Notes under the pieces: model-generated | Told to the model about the DNA's origin: nothing | The model's database searches: none | Seen by the model: only the letters and a program-made list of their open reading frames with translations | In this document: positions 2,087 through 7,776 of the stretch, piece by piece | How the letters are laid out: every line of letters starts with the position of its first letter | Numbering within the stretch: position 1 is the first letter of the stretch | Assembly (NCBI GenBank): GCA_012514615.1 | Contig: JAAYZY010000584.1 | Location: 1-7,776, forward strand | Reading direction: 5' to 3' | Source of the DNA: Chloroflexota bacterium | GTDB taxonomy: Bacteria > Chloroflexota > Anaerolineae > DTPP01 | DNA: 7,776 nt | Made by a program: the position numbers and the translations under genes

Positions 2087-3995
2087 TCAGACGGCGGCAG
2101 CTACCACCTCCAGATTGATGCGCCCCACTTCCAGGTGATCCAGCGCCTGGGTGAAGAGGAGCGCGTGGCGGCTGCCCAACGGGGTGTCCGGCGGCAGCGC
2201 CACTCGCACCTGTACCCGCACGCGGTCGCTGGGCTTCAGGCTCAGCCGCCGGAGCACGTTCGTGCCCACATCGGACCAGACGCCGGCCGTGGCGTAGACT
2301 TGGTTCTCCGCCGTGACCCCTATGCCATCCAAGACGGCATCCTCCAGCACCCGGCGCACCATCTTCACTTCCACCAACCCGTCGCTGGGGAAGCAGCTGC
2401 GGTCCACCTCCAGGTCCAGCGCCACCGGGTCGGCCCGCACGCCGCGCATGACGAACTCCACCTTGGCCTCTTGGCCGGGAACGACCTCGATCAGGTGGCT
2501 GTTCCGCTGGGCCACGTTGTTATCCCACTTCACCGACCAGTCGTGCTGCAGAGGGTCCTCCTGGGATTCCAGCCGGGCCAGGAAGCAGGCTGGCCCGCTC
2601 TCCTGGGGCTCCCAGGCCAGCTTGACCACCTTGTGGCGCCCGGCTGGGATGGAGGCCAGCTCCAACGTGGCCAGGAACTGCCACTTGTCGGGCCAGATCG
2701 AGGGCGAGTAGGGGTGCTGGTAAAGGTGCACCCGCACGCCGTAGGCCGTGGCCGGCCCGCGGTTGTGCACCCGGGCGAAGAGGTAGTTGGCCTGCCCGGC
2801 CAGGGGCGGCTGGTGCTCTGACTCACCGTCGTCGGCGTTGCGCACCCAGAGGTCAGGGCTGTTCCAGTATGGGCCGGGGGTGGGCACCAGGCCGGTGTCG
2901 TCTTCGCTGTCGCGCATCCAGATGTCGGCTTCCGAGAGGCGGTCGGCGCTGAAGGCGGCTTGGTTGTAGCCGCTGATGTAGGTGTAGGGGATGGACCCGT
3001 AGCCGGGGCCCCAGGTGCTCTGCTCGCCCCAGGGGGGCCCACGAGTTGCGGATGATGAAGTACCCCCCGCCGGGGGCGTTCTCGTCATCCACATAGCCCA
3101 CCATGCACATGGCATGGCCGCCGGCCACCGTGTCGCCGGGCAGCGGCATGGTGATCTTGCCGAAGCGCCGCGACGCCTCAGAGCGGTACCAACTGGTGTA
3201 GACCGGGATGGCGAAGGCCACCACCTTGCCGTCGGCTAGGCAGGTCTTGATGTCTTCCACGGCGCGGGGGTTCAGCGTGATGGTGCGCGCGGTGCGGAAC
3301 GGCGCGGCCTCATGGGCGGCGTCGGGTGGGGGCGGCCCTTGGCCCTCGTCGCCGGGCGTCTCCTGGGGGTTGTAGAGCCAGACCTCCTCAGGGGGGACGC
3401 CAGCCTGCAGCAGGCATTCCATCCCCAGCCGCGGGTAGGTGCCGCTCTCGTCGGGGATGCCGTCGTGCTCTTTGCACCACCAGTAGACGAACTGCTCCGA
3501 AAGGTCCAGCTCCGCGCTGCCGGCCACCCGTTCCAGGTACTCTCGCACGGCCACGCTGGCCTGGGCCACGCAGGTGCCCCGCTCTGCCTGGTTGCGCACC
3601 GGGCCCATCAGCTCCCGGTAGTCCACCGTGGCTGGCAGCGCGGTAGGGTGCGTCACGGTGACGTAGGGGCTGAGGGAGGTAGCGGCCACGAACTCGGCTT
3701 CGGCCGGGGCCAGGCTGCCCATGCCGTAAGCCATCTCGGCCAGGTGGGCGCCGCCGGAGCGGGCTGCCGCCACCATAGGCAGGTGCATCCGGGCGGCTTC
3801 CAGCAGGTCTTGCAGCGCTGGGTCCTCCACCCCCAAGTAGTTGGCCAGGCTGGCCTGCCCTTCTGGCGTCTCGGCCAGGGCCACCAGCTCTTGGACGGTG
3901 TCTATCCACAGCTCGCGGAGCTTGCTCAGGTGCGCATCGGGGATCTCCGATACCTCAGTCAGCGGCACGCCGCGGCGGATCAGCTTGCGGGTCAT
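2087..3995 (-). CDS. Papain-family (C1) cysteine peptidase with N-terminal helical and C-terminal beta-rich domains, frameshifted
   Basis: Start ATG at 3995, behind a strong AAGGAGGA ribosome site; no signal peptide is visible. Residues about 10-73 are an all-helical region like the protein encoded just upstream. The C1 core spans about 125-345. It shows oxyanion-hole Gln136, Cys142 in RGTCVAQ, the LSEQFVYWWCK helix (about 165-175), His294 in AGGHAMCMVGY and Asn317 in IIRNSWA. The frame breaks right after codon 321, in six C on the coding strand (3037-3032). Reading resumes one base on with WGEQSTWGPGYGSIPYTYI, the expected end of a bacterial C1 domain. Next come DIWMRD- and DLWVRN-type segments, then a beta-sandwich with ARVHNRG (CARDB-like by eye) and a last beta-rich domain ending at 2087. 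Joined, it is about 635 residues. Unjoined, the first frame stops at 2853 after 380 residues, the last 59 of them aberrant. The break may be a sequencing error, a real mutation or, less likely, programmed. Family sure; substrate unknown. Confidence 0.85.
3032..3037 (-). other. Frameshift site: run of six C in the C1 peptidase gene
   Basis: The frame before the run is TGG GCC CCC CTG (Trp-Ala-Pro-Leu); the frame that continues the family needs TGG directly after the C run. Removing one C gives NSWAPWGE. Adding two gives NSWAPPWGE, which restores the three-residue gap between the two Trp seen in papain-type NSWGTxWG motifs. Both flanking frames remain long and family-like, which points to a very recent change or an error in reading the homopolymer. 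Confidence 0.85.
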
Positions 3996-4000
3996 GACTT

Positions 4001-4008
4001 TCCTCCTT
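4001..4008 (-). promoter_or_regulatory. Ribosome binding site of the C1 peptidase gene
   Basis: AAGGAGGA on the minus strand ends 5 bases before the ATG at 3995. This near-perfect Shine-Dalgarno site settles the start codon against the long in-frame extension upstream, which overlaps the preceding gene in another frame. Confidence 0.8.
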
Positions 4009-4025
4009 GCCTTCAGCCGCGTCCC

Positions 4026-4044
4026 CGCCTGCCAGCCGCAGGCG
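4026..4044 (-). other. Intercistronic hairpin between the helical protein and C1 peptidase genes
   Basis: CGCCTGC (minus strand 4044-4038) and GCAGGCG (4032-4026) form a perfect 7-bp stem with a 5-base loop. It lies between the stop of the 118-residue gene and the ribosome site of the peptidase gene. No T run follows, so it is more likely an mRNA processing or stabilising element, or a tuner of the ratio of the two products, than a full terminator. Confidence 0.4.
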
Positions 4045-4053
4045 CGGCGAAGC

Positions 4054-4410
4054 TCACGCTTCCTGTTCGGTGGGCGGTTCTGGGGCATGGTCATCGTCCT
4101 CCCACAGCGCGCCCAGGGCGAACGCCTCGTCGGCTTCCTGGGCGAAGGCCTGCGCTTCGTCCGGCGGCAGGTATTCGCTGGCGATCTCCACCAACGTCTC
4201 CACCTCGTGGGAGTCCATCTCCAACAGGCGGGAGAGGCCGTCAAGGCCCTTGGGGGTTGCCGCCAACGAAACCAGTTCTTCGGCGGTGATGACCCACAGG
4301 CCCGCCAACTGCTGCGCACGCTCTGGGGGGAAGTCGGGGATGGAGCGGAGGGGCATACCAAAGCGGTACAAGGGGCCCTGGGCGCGACCCCGGCGCTTCC
4401 TTGCGTTCAT
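4054..4410 (-). CDS. Small all-helical protein, paralogue of the N-terminal domain of the adjacent C1 peptidase
   Basis: 118 residues. The ATG at 4410 is chosen because AAGGAGGG (4417-4424) precedes it by 6 bases; longer in-frame starts upstream run across the promoter. The N-terminus is basic (MNARKRRGRAQ). Residues about 20-83 look helical and align without gaps to residues about 10-73 of the C1 peptidase, with about 22 of 64 identical by hand count. Shared anchors include EL-W near residue 38, T-EELVSLA-TP-G (42-55), L-x3-L (59-63) and a final LP (82-83). The C-terminal tail is very acidic (EAFALGALWEDDDHAPEPPTEQEA region). There is no signal peptide or membrane segment. It sits first in a two-gene unit, 58 bases before the peptidase. 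I do not recognise a named family; the motif pattern could be a helix-hairpin-helix-like interaction module. An inhibitor or adaptor for the peptidase is inference only. Confidence 0.75.
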   Translation of the reverse strand: MNARKRRGRAQGPLYRFGMPLRSIPDFPPERAQQLAGLWVITAEELVSLAATPKGLDGLSRLLEMDSHEVETLVEIASEYLPPDEAQAFAQEADEAFALGALWEDDDHAPEPPTEQEA

Positions 4411-4637: not shown

Positions 4638-5534
4638 ATGACCAAGGGGCTGCCGGCCGGCGCCGTGCTGCAGGGACGCCACGGGGCATACATGGTCACC
4701 AGGGAGGTAGCCCGGGGCGGGATGGGCGCCATCCTGGAAGCGCAGGAGCAGGGAAGCGGCCGCGTGGTGGCCGTCAAGGCTGCTTGCCTGGACCCGGCCT
4801 TCTGCGAAGGGAAGCGCGAGGTGATCCGCGAACGCCTGCTCCAGGAGATGAGCGCCCTCCTGCCGTTGGAGCACCCCAGCCTGCCCCGTGTCGTCGACCA
4901 GTTTTCCAGCGCAGACAACGAATTCCTGGTGATGGAGTTCGTGGCCGGCCAGACGCTGAACAAGATCCTAGACCGCGCCATCCGTGAGAAGCGTCTGCTG
5001 GAGGAAAGCCGCGTCGTGGGCTGGGCGCTGCAGGTCTTGGACGCCTTGGCCTACCTCCACGGCCAGCCCAAACCGATCATCCACCGCGACATCAAGCCCG
5101 ACAACCTCATCCTGACGCCGGACGGCCGGGTGGTGCTGGTGGATTTTGGCCTGATGAAGCAGGTGGAACGCAGCCTGCAGAGCGGCCCGCTGATCCATGC
5201 CGTGGGTACGGTGGAGTTTGCCCCGCCGGAGCAGTATGCCGAGGGGAGCGGCGGCACCGACCAGCGCACCGACATCTACAGCCTGGGGGCCACCCTCTAC
5301 TACCTGCTGACCAGCCGCCTGCCGCCCCGCTCGGTGGAGCGGATGCTGCCGTTCTCCATGGGCGCGGTGAAGAAGCTGCCCTCCGTTCGGGCGGCCAACG
5401 CCACCGTCTCGCCACAGACCGAACGGGTGGTGGCGAGGGCCATGGAGATCGACCCGGCCGACCGCTACCCCACGGCGCAAGCCATGCGGGAGGCGCTGGC
5501 GCCCCGCCGGCGCTTCTTCACGCTGCCGTTCTGA
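4638..5534 (+). CDS. Stand-alone Hanks-type serine/threonine protein kinase
   Basis: 298 residues, essentially one kinase domain. Visible motifs in order: the Gly-rich loop ARGGMGA (25-31), VAVK with ATP-binding Lys47, the alpha-C Glu near 70, IHRDIKPDN with catalytic Asp151, Lys153 and Asn156, the metal-binding DFG (169-171), a GTVEFAPPEQY activation-loop end (190-200), DIYSLGATLYYLLT (212-225) and the late Arg276 in DRYPTA. All residues needed for phosphotransfer are present, so it should be active. There is no transmembrane helix, PASTA, FHA or TPR region, so it is predicted cytosolic and its input must come from partners. It is the only gene of its unit: it has its own promoter, and a strong hairpin begins 3 bases past the stop. 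It is divergent from the peptidase operon with about 227 bases between the starts. Substrates are unknown, and calling it PknB would overstate the match. Confidence 0.93.
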   Translation: MTKGLPAGAVLQGRHGAYMVTREVARGGMGAILEAQEQGSGRVVAVKAACLDPAFCEGKREVIRERLLQEMSALLPLEHPSLPRVVDQFSSADNEFLVMEFVAGQTLNKILDRAIREKRLLEESRVVGWALQVLDALAYLHGQPKPIIHRDIKPDNLILTPDGRVVLVDFGLMKQVERSLQSGPLIHAVGTVEFAPPEQYAEGSGGTDQRTDIYSLGATLYYLLTSRLPPRSVERMLPFSMGAVKKLPSVRAANATVSPQTERVVARAMEIDPADRYPTAQAMREALAPRRRFFTLPF

Positions 5535-5621: not shown

Positions 5622-6206
5622 CTAGGCCCGCTTCGTCCGCACCTCCCAGACCAGGGAAGCCGCCACCGCCAGCCAAGCCAGGGCCAGCCCCGCCCACAGG
5701 GTGCGCGTGGCCCGGTAGGTGGCAGGGTCGTCGGCCGCGTTCAGGGCGTAGACATCGTCGCCCAGCGTCAGACCGTAGGTCTCGGCGAAGAGATCTCCCA
5801 CCTGGCGGGAGAACGGTACGTCGTCCCAGGCGCCCAAGCGCCCGTCGATGGGGATGGCCGCCCCGGGGGCCTGGACGTCGGCCGGCAGCTCCCACTGGTC
5901 AGCCCGCACGATCAGGCGATCGTCGGCGCCCAGCAGGGGGAAGAAGGTGGTGGCCCAGGCCCCGTAGCGCACGTAGGTGAAGGCGCGGCGGTAGTCTGGC
6001 TGTGCTGTGAGGCGGATGTAAGCGCCGCTGTGCACCTGGCCGGCCAGGACGACCTCCACGGTGGTCTCCAGCGGCTGGGCGCTGCGGAAGCTGTACAGGG
6101 CGTTGCCGGAAAGGCACAGCACCAACGGCGTGAAGAAGAGCAGCAGCGCCAGCTTCAGCGCCACCGATTTGCGGATGCGTCTGGGTGTGGGCATGGTGGG
6201 TGTCAT
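5622..6206 (-). CDS. Two-helix membrane protein of unknown function, next to a CydA homologue
   Basis: 194 residues from the ATG at 6206. The basic N-terminus (RRIRK, 9-13) precedes a first membrane helix (about 17-34), which could also be an uncleaved signal. An extracytoplasmic part of about 130 residues follows. It contains a beta-rich stretch (TTVEVVLAGQVHSGAYIRL, about 48-66), a Tyr/Trp-rich YVRYGAWATTFFPLLG region and a WDDVPFSRQVGDLF segment. A second helix (about 168-187) leads to a basic end (RTKRA). By the positive-inside rule both ends are cytoplasmic. I recognise no family, and it is not CydB, which has far more helices. It lies 64 bases after the CydA-like gene on the same strand, so it may be an accessory subunit. 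Start choice is uncertain: no ribosome site is strong (GAGCGAGG is close to 6206), ATG 6194 is possible, and ATG 6251 sits in a hairpin loop. Confidence 0.72.
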   Translation of the reverse strand: MTPTMPTPRRIRKSVALKLALLLFFTPLVLCLSGNALYSFRSAQPLETTVEVVLAGQVHSGAYIRLTAQPDYRRAFTYVRYGAWATTFFPLLGADDRLIVRADQWELPADVQAPGAAIPIDGRLGAWDDVPFSRQVGDLFAETYGLTLGDDVYALNAADDPATYRATRTLWAGLALAWLAVAASLVWEVRTKRA

Positions 6207-6270: not shown

Positions 6271-7776
6271 CTACTGGCGGCTGGCCACGGCCGGCGGCTC
6301 CGCCTCGGCGCTGTCGCCGAAGGCGATCCACAGGCCCACCAGCGAGAGCAGGACCACCATGGCCGAGTTGAAGACGATGAACCCAAGCATGTTGGGCAGC
6401 GGCATGGGCGTTGTGCTGCGAATCACCGTCTCGAACGGTTCTTCGGAAGCCCGCAGGATGTTGTAGATGAGGAAGGGCGCGCGCGCCCCCTCTCGGGCGA
6501 AGCCCATTACGTTCATCATGAACAGGCTGAAGAGCGCGCCGGCCATGAGCACCGTGCTGCTGAAGCGCTCCCGCAGCTCCCTGGCCACGTGCCCCCGCGC
6601 CCGCAGGTAGATCAGCACGTTGGCCAGGGTGAGGGTGGTAATGCCGATGAGGGTGGCGAACTTCCAAGGCCACATGCGCCCGATGGGGATGGTGATGCTG
6701 CCTTGGCGGTAGGGGACGATGGCGATGAGGGTGCAGAGCAGTACCGCCAGGGTAACCACCCGGCTGACTCGGCCCCACTGCCCTCGGCCCAGACGCCCCA
6801 CCAAGACGGCCACCACCGCATAGAGCCCAGCCACCAGGGCCAACGTCGCCAGCGCGTCGGCGGGCGTGGCGGCCGACCCAGGGCCGGCGCCCCGCAGCGC
6901 CAGGCCGCCGGCTGTGAGCAGGGCCAGGGCCGCGCCGGCCGCCACCGCACCCAATGCCGGCCGGGTGGCATCGCCCCCGGCGCCGGCCGGCGCCGACTGC
7001 AGCAGCCGCGTCAGGTAGAAGTTGGAGCCGGCAAACAGCAGCGTCAGGAAGAAGATCTGCAGGTTGAAGACATAGCGGTAGTCGCCGATCATCAGGTTGA
7101 GGAACGCTGGCAAGACCGCCTGCTGGATGTCGTGGACGTAGAGGAAGCCGATGAACGGCATCAGGAAGAGGTTGACCATGCCGATCATGAAGGTCCAGTT
7201 GGTGGCCCAGGTGAAGTAGCGCTTCTCAGAGCCGCTGGGGAGCCGCCAGGCCTGGAAGGCGGTGACGGCGGCCACGCACATGCCCATGAACGCCAGCCCC
7301 CCCACCAGACGATGCAGCGTCAGGGCCACGTAGGTGGGGTTTTCCAGGTAGAGCCCCTGCAGGCTGCGGTCGAAGGGATGCTCGCCCAGGCCGGCCGAGG
7401 TGAGCATGGAGGCCGCCACCCCGTTGATGATGAGGGGCGTGACCATGCCGAAGAAGGAAGCCAGCAAGCCGATGCCGATGTGCAGGCGCTTGCGGCGGCG
7501 GAAGCGGTTCCAGGTGTAGAAGTAGGCGTAGACGGTGATCCCTTCCAGCAGGAAGTTGACCACCTCCACCACCATGGGCCACAGGTAGAGGTTGAACATC
7601 TGCGCCCACAGTCTGGGCCAGAAGCCGACCAGCGTGGCCACCAGGCCCACGCCAAAGAGGGCGCCGATGCTGAAGACGGCCACGTTGAACTTGGCCACGG
7701 TGCGCGCCAAGCGGTCGTGCCAAGCGCTGCCCCGGCGGTGACCGATGATCTCGGTGAAGGCGGCGATGATGGGGCC
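6271..7776 (-). CDS. Cytochrome bd-type quinol oxidase subunit I (CydA) homologue, divergent, 5' end outside window
   Basis: 501 residues are visible; the frame is open to the window edge, so the true start lies outside. CydA subunits oxidise quinol and carry the hemes of bd oxidases in the cytoplasmic membrane. About 13 hydrophobic helices can be counted. Matches to CydA, by visible residue number: a first-helix end GPIIAAFTEIIGHR (1-14); PMVVEVVNFLLEG with Glu71 and Glu78, like the two acids of the proton path; VALTLHRLVGGLAFMG with His155, the likely heme b558 ligand; and MGFAREGARAPFLIY with Glu429 and Arg432, the ExxRxP motif of the CydA C-terminus. The first-helix His that binds heme b595 would lie outside the window. 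The quinol-binding Q-loop of classical CydA is not obvious; residues about 258-325 are instead Ala/Gly-rich helices. It is the first of at least two genes, and the next is not CydB. It may be a bd-like redox protein with another partner rather than a true O2 reductase. Confidence 0.8.
   Translation of the reverse strand, partial: GPIIAAFTEIIGHRRGSAWHDRLARTVAKFNVAVFSIGALFGVGLVATLVGFWPRLWAQMFNLYLWPMVVEVVNFLLEGITVYAYFYTWNRFRRRKRLHIGIGLLASFFGMVTPLIINGVAASMLTSAGLGEHPFDRSLQGLYLENPTYVALTLHRLVGGLAFMGMCVAAVTAFQAWRLPSGSEKRYFTWATNWTFMIGMVNLFLMPFIGFLYVHDIQQAVLPAFLNLMIGDYRYVFNLQIFFLTLLFAGSNFYLTRLLQSAPAGAGGDATRPALGAVAAGAALALLTAGGLALRGAGPGSAATPADALATLALVAGLYAVVAVLVGRLGRGQWGRVSRVVTLAVLLCTLIAIVPYRQGSITIPIGRMWPWKFATLIGITTLTLANVLIYLRARGHVARELRERFSSTVLMAGALFSLFMMNVMGFAREGARAPFLIYNILRASEEPFETVIRSTTPMPLPNMLGFIVFNSAMVVLLSLVGLWIAFGDSAEAEPPAVASRQ
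6978..6995. repeat. 18-bp perfect GC palindrome inside the CydA-like gene
   Basis: CGGCGCCGGCCGGCGCCG is fully self-complementary. It falls in codons for the Ala/Pro/Gly-rich cytoplasmic or periplasmic linker between helices, where sequence constraint is weak. With no loop it would form a cruciform or be a binding site. Chance in a GC-rich linker is the simplest explanation. Confidence 0.4.

Follow-up and report, generated by a model that had tools for sequence, protein, structure and literature searches.

A free copy of the pro-region of a papain-family peptidase, encoded beside the peptidase in a Chloroflexota genome, as a candidate trans-acting inhibitor or regulator

The stretch of DNA analysed here, referred to as the window, comprises 7,776 nucleotides of contig JAAYZY010000584.1 (assembly GCA_012514615.1) from a Chloroflexota bacterium. 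Its reverse strand carries two neighbouring genes, one coding for a papain-family C1A peptidase (P0002) and the other for a small protein (P0001) that is homologous to the N-terminus of this peptidase. The pair is laid out as follows, with residue equivalences taken from alignment A1, the source of a profile of peptidase N-termini, and from the 36-row alignment A3.

4054..4410, reverse strand: free pro-region protein P0001, 118 amino acids (open reading frame (ORF) and translation); ATG at 4410, stop at 4054-4056, Shine-Dalgarno-like AAAGGAGG
4165..4365, reverse strand: helical module of P0001, residues 16-82, resembling helix-hairpin-helix (HhH) domains and half of DUF4332 (profile match over residues 16-82; AlphaFold2 helices between 29 and 90)
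4105..4119, reverse strand: ALGAL motif of P0001, residues 98-102, with G100 (alignment A3; tail test)
4057..4104, reverse strand: acidic C-terminal tail that follows the motif in P0001 (translation; low predicted local distance difference test score, pLDDT)
2853..3995, reverse strand: 5' part of the C1A peptidase, P0002, with the pro-region, the core as far as RNSW and then 61 out-of-frame residues (Pfam; translation)
3774..3992, reverse strand: peptidase copy of the helical module, P0002 residues 2-74 (profile match, 88.2 bits)
3711..3725, reverse strand: GMGSL motif of the peptidase pro-region, P0002 residues 91-95, with G93 (equal to the invariant G94 of P0004, an intact peptidase relative, in A1; xylellain correspondence)
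2087..3040, reverse strand: frame-shifted 3' part of the peptidase, with the rest of the core and a CARDB-like beta region, within P0003 (weak CARDB match, E 0.00089, below cut-off)

The peptidase ATG lies at 3995, 58 bases past the P0001 stop, and a Shine-Dalgarno-like sequence precedes both genes; the first-pass annotation had begun the feature at 3996 and so took in this intergenic gap, the small ORF itself being 4054-4410 on the reverse strand. That P0001 is homologous to the N-terminal part of the C1A peptidase next to it is confirmed. The 22 identities in 64 positions first counted by hand agree with a BLASTP alignment of P0001 residues 14-102 to P0002 residues 5-95 (31 of 91 identical, two gap positions, E 2e-12 for a single comparison), and the profile search that had been proposed as a check bore this out: a profile of 33 peptidase N-termini, from which P0001 was excluded, scores P0001 at 55.0 bits, with a maximum of 9.2 bits over 5000 shuffles of P0001. 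The similarity does not end at an LP, as had been thought, since it continues for about 20 residues to FALGAL (G100), matched by YGMGSL (G93) of the peptidase; the acidic tail then described on a lone module does exist, but begins only after FALGAL. P0001 carries both the module and the Gly motif that precedes the core and therefore represents a pro-region without a catalytic core. In homology to the partner's pro-region, absence of a core and position of its gene beside that of the protease, it has the properties of a propeptide-like protein.

The partner is recognised by PF00112 (Peptidase_C1, E 2.3e-10). The oxyanion residue Q136 and the catalytic residues C142, H294 and N317 are all present in P0002, all of them before the frame shift, and their equivalents in P0004 (Q137, C143, H295 and N318) are invariant in A1. 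The window peptidase is not a single ORF: the frame is lost at about 3030-3041, directly after RNSW (W319), and the remainder runs in another frame to 2087 (P0003). Its 20 best relatives are open, 619-649 amino acids long and longer than P0002; because the four closest of them (71-75% identity) have 637-639 residues, the frame shift is a recent lesion or else an error of the assembly. By eye, the peptidases that bear the module have no signal peptide.

The AlphaFold2 model of P0001 reaches block-mean pLDDT values of 91-98 across residues 21-90, and 64-79 from residue 101 on. An HhH-like module had been guessed at first, and this fits: profile comparison (hhalign) relates the module to the first half of DUF4332 proteins (97%, E 1.1e-10, 61 columns), and in structure comparison the model lies closest to the N-terminal domains of RAD51 and Dmc1, with Pol iota and NusA AR2 further down. 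Since the scores remain below the DUF4332 (PF14229) cut-off of 23.2, with no match for P0001 and 12.4 bits for P0002, the module is best described as kin of the first half of this HhH-type domain and not as a member; nine of the 36 A3 members match DUF4332 weakly (best E 0.00024). These structural neighbours would suit a nucleic-acid-binding HhH module, in which case the free protein would be a DNA- or RNA-binding partner or an autoregulator of the operon. A further point for this explanation, which we consider quite improbable, is a protein encoded upstream of a C1 peptidase at locus L072 (7042-7581), where a weak module follows an HTH_17 DNA-binding domain. Several other matches were set aside: those of the A3 profile to TAL effectors among Protein Data Bank sequences (about 20 residues, no passing stretch) and to FADD (E 0.4-0.6, too weak to use), and the PhyR sigma-like, Xre-like HTH and singleton Pfam matches of members of A3 or of the free-protein alignment A6, which were weak and taken as noise.

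The glycine of the motif offers a second line of comparison. The G100 column is invariant across the 36 rows of A3, and the peptidase's Gly motif has its counterpart in the N-terminal stretch of xylellain (3ois), as seen both in sequence, where a Priestia peptidase provides the bridge, and in structure. The Priestia peptidase is encoded on a Priestia megaterium plasmid (NZ_CP085450.1, L165) and has the motif before its core without the HhH module; the next gene codes for a chagasin-type I42 inhibitor, which sets a precedent for a dedicated inhibitor gene within this C1 branch. A single I42 sequence used as query detected no I42-like ORF near module-bearing peptidases in the fetched loci; an I42 gene is present in six of 30 genomes, always on contigs other than that of the module-bearing peptidase. 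The copied stretch is also where a C1 zymogen would be expected to be processed, and the acidic tail of P0001 is modelled with low confidence, both of which would suit a substrate or decoy that the peptidase cuts, so as to release a signal peptide or to titrate the protease; such a role is improbable, however, as there is no identifiable cleavage site and the free-protein tail beyond the motif is not conserved.

Scanning genomes yielded 79 loci, with the module on the peptidase in 65 and, at L072, a match only in the upstream protein. A free copy adjoins the peptidase in 13 of the 65 module-bearing loci, which together with L163, drawn from a class sample and not from the scan, and the window makes 15 pairs; L072 was left out of these counts, its peptidase module having an E of 0.23 and its upstream protein being the HTH_17 protein. 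According to record titles the pairs belong to Chloroflexota (L001-L004), Clostridia (L029), Methylococcaceae (L031), Phycisphaerae (L032, L034), Verrucomicrobia (L033, L040, L048) and Cytophagaceae (L041), and a further one is L037; the titles are those of metagenome-assembled genomes (MAGs) and may be wrong, L017 (Thermodesulfobacteriaceae) being equal to L016 (Caldilineae) in frame length and scores. The free gene lies upstream on the same strand in 13 of the 15 pairs, while L029 is arranged head-to-head and L041 tail-to-tail. Eleven of the same-strand pairs were measured, with starts chosen by hand, and have intergenic gaps from -26 to 359 bases; stop and start codons overlap as ATGA in L032, L034 and L037.

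Among 30 genomes (E<1e-8) the module matches are C1 peptidases and their free neighbours only, and the free copies, found in 13 genomes, always stand beside the peptidase; eight of 18 weak matches were inspected and comprise seven DUF4332 proteins and, by eye, one RNA polymerase subunit. The module is sparse at E<=1e-8, occurring in 23 of 400 genomes of the phylum of G001, one of 288 (phylum of G019) and two of 294 (phylum of G018), and in the class of G002 in 36 of 298, three of which rest solely on weak matches in frames of 144-183 residues; these samples include already-known genomes, and at most 14-19 candidates were scored per genome. A protein search with P0001 alone and a strict word filter returned only P0001 itself among 34 candidates. 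The free-protein alignment retrieved seven others, namely the proteins of L004 (P0124) and L163 (P0125), one nearly that of L037 (P0123) and four new ones. No relative was found on viral contigs; none of the 21 plasmid and three phage records matching P0004 covers 80% of this protein, the 13 rows listed starting at residue 92 or later; and PADLOC returned nothing for P0001, P0002, P0004 and the peptidases of L053 and L048.

The history of the two genes was followed in a tree of 59 modules, which has few columns and omits L072 and 22 similar rows (21 of the Chloroflexales type and L017). Free and peptidase types mostly cluster, with four label changes versus 13.4-13.5 in shuffles, and the window and L001-L004 come together in a single group of peptidase modules (support 93/89, below the starred level). 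Over 14 pairs the distances between free proteins correlate with those between peptidase cores (r 0.56; 0 of 20000 permutations). Because the modules group by type and the pair distances correlate, the duplication is old and the two genes have travelled together. The frame shift in the window peptidase might suggest that P0001 is a functionless recent duplication, a decaying 5' fragment of the peptidase gene; with the split between the types being old, and free genes being open in distant relatives, three of them with the overlapping codons mentioned above, this is extremely improbable.

The surroundings of some pairs give a hint of a conflict or cell-death setting. Caspase-domain (C14) genes are found in the fetched sequence flanking the pair at L032, L033, L034 and L048. 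L053 (7950-10793) and nine other Chloroflexales-type loci encode proteins of about 950-1050 residues in which the module and the C1 peptidase are joined to a C25-like region, with HG and AC invariant in the ten aligned proteins (Pfam E 0.0019, 0.038 and 0.046, below cut-off); a profile of the Chloroflexales C-terminus (A4) gave no gingipain match by sequence. In a MAG titled Myxococcales (L051, 1-3288) the module, a C1 peptidase and a DEAD helicase matching the SngC and BrxHI models occupy one frame. The window itself has no caspase-domain gene, C25-like region or helicase fusion, and of such neighbours shows a kinase only.

As the main alternative to a pro-region inhibitor, the free module might act as a homotypic adaptor, pairing with the module of the peptidase in the way proposed for effector-associated domains (EADs) and thereby recruiting or clustering it in a conflict or cell-suicide pathway, with the active site not blocked. 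The caspase-domain neighbours and the C25-like region speak for this, as do the two modules of the L001 free protein, the restriction of the match to the first DUF4332 half, a weak hit of one A6 member to Pfam Death (E 0.14) and an architectural rule shared with EADs, a second copy in an adjacent gene, as set out in PMC7159879 (Kaur 2020). The same source has adjacent EAD copies tending to be closest to each other, whereas here a free module has its own pair on top in just one of 14 cases; no Pfam EAD model, EAD1 being included in the library, matches any of the 15 A6 or 36 A3 members; in the 30 genomes the matches comprise only the C1 peptidases and their free neighbours, the sole link to an NTPase being the C1-helicase fusion of L051; and the copying of the motif before the core would be left unexplained. 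An adaptor role is thus possible, though we think it unlikely. A search for EAD1 in eight genomes gave no matches, with the controls silent too, and is uninformative on absence.

Other genes were noted around the pairs. The C14 proteins carry FGE-sulfatase (L032, L033) and GYF_2 (L032, L034) domains and Sel1 repeats (L048). A Snf7 (ESCRT-III-like) match at L048 (11275-11997) and an AAA ATPase match at L037 (1742-3091) are near the C1 peptidase, as are genes similar to both at L072 (5048-6950). In the proteins of L132 and L133 the module is followed by a hydrophobic segment and by bacterial Ig domains, with a Pfam result for L132 alone. In the window, the divergent neighbour of the pair is a kinase gene:

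4638..5534, forward strand: divergent Ser/Thr protein kinase, a neighbour with no demonstrated tie to the pair (Pfam Pkinase, E 1.2e-39)

Its best PADLOC models are PD-T4-6 kinases, probably reflecting generic kinase similarity. A tie to the pair was considered and judged too thin, kinases being near the pair only in the window and L037; at L037, kinases with FGE-sulfatase domains flank the pair. A convergent neighbour (174-1904) encodes an M28 peptidase that has Thr/Pro-rich linkers and a part weakly resembling InhA-MAM, and two further frames code for proteins of 191 residues (5622-6197) and 479 residues (6271-7710, by eye a multi-helix membrane protein), neither with a Pfam match at E<=1.

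We think it rather probable that P0001 is a pro-region acting in trans to inhibit or regulate the neighbouring C1A peptidase, inhibition being the activity we infer. An inhibiting or chaperoning role had been raised early on by analogy with prodomains, and the idea is strengthened because P0001 also copies the motif equivalent to the xylellain N-terminal stretch. The HhH/DUF4332-like module of the free protein would dock onto the peptidase, and the ALGAL segment would occupy the active-site cleft or lie next to it, as is expected of the cis copy and the xylellain stretch. The docked protein may keep the peptidase inactive, or aid its folding, until a signal releases it, and the cis pro-region and the free copy would make up two layers of control.

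A number of observations weigh against this proposal. No I29 propeptide domain was matched in Pfam by the 36 A3 members (E<=0.1) or the 15 A6 members (E<=1), and that the xylellain stretch blocks its own active site is presumed here. The motif pattern fails in four of 14 free-protein tails (GEV in L002, GAE in L003, GLT in L037, GLQ in L040), alignment A6, which contains only free proteins, places the L001 copy out of register, and the P0001 tail has low pLDDT. The free module at L031 (1494-2282) follows an N-terminus that looks lipoprotein-like by eye, with no Pfam match there, which is odd for a cytoplasmic partner. Fifty-two of the 65 module-bearing loci, some with little upstream sequence, have no adjacent free copy; the adjacency expected across Chloroflexota is seen in L001-L004, L163 and the window, but most Chloroflexota loci with such a peptidase lack the free copy. 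The module of its own peptidase is the nearest to the free module in just one of 14 pairs, and the correlation of distances shows joint inheritance, by itself no sign of contact.

It is further conceivable, if doubtful, that P0001 stands for a sparse but widespread class of bacterial, pro-region-derived inhibitors whose scaffold is half a DUF4332/HhH fold, each dedicated to one non-secreted papain-like protease. Such inhibitors might serve as the safety catch in a pathway of proteolytic self-destruction or defence, acting alongside caspase-family proteases (neighbours in Verrucomicrobia and Phycisphaerae, a C25-like fusion in Chloroflexales) as well as a defence-type helicase, the latter in a single Myxococcales protein. 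The pro-region reading of P0001, if right, would provide a readily testable two-gene protease-inhibitor pair, a role for the DUF4332-type module and a possible switch of regulated cell death. No description of such a pair was found among the titles and abstract openings listed by literature searches of an open-licence library, in which a single paper names DUF4332.

Animal cathepsins and SpeB are known to have free propeptide-like inhibitors. Similarly to the present pair, a small gene coding for a propeptide analogue, Spi, adjoins the cysteine protease gene speB and is co-transcribed with it, as described in PMC2873492; SpeB is a C10 and not a C1A peptidase, whereas the present peptidases are C1A enzymes without a signal peptide by eye. 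The MEROPS I29 proteins (CTLA-2alpha, crammer, BCPI) are likewise free and propeptide-like, and their function depends on residues near the end, according to PMC4089206; they differ in that the pair described here is bacterial and has an HhH/DUF4332-like module with no I29 match. Chagasin-type I42 inhibitors resemble P0001 in that the inhibitor gene directly follows a related C1 peptidase on the Priestia plasmid, but a single I42 query finds no I42-like ORF in the fetched loci of module-bearing peptidases. Xylellain and xylellain-like C1A peptidases provide the closest solved core and have the N-terminal stretch GxG.I/L.P in common, but since the match begins at chain residue 31, there is no space for the module. 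The DUF4332/HHH_5 proteins align with the module through their first half, whereas here there is a single half, with the Gly motif after it and a peptidase following in one gene of the pair. With EADs the pair shares a small non-catalytic domain in two adjacent genes, one of them fused to an enzyme, and differs in giving no EAD profile match and in copies that are not closest to each other. Seen against these systems, the propeptide-like inhibitor device appears to have arisen here on a fold unrelated to those of SpeB-Spi and I29, for papain-like proteases in MAGs of several phyla.
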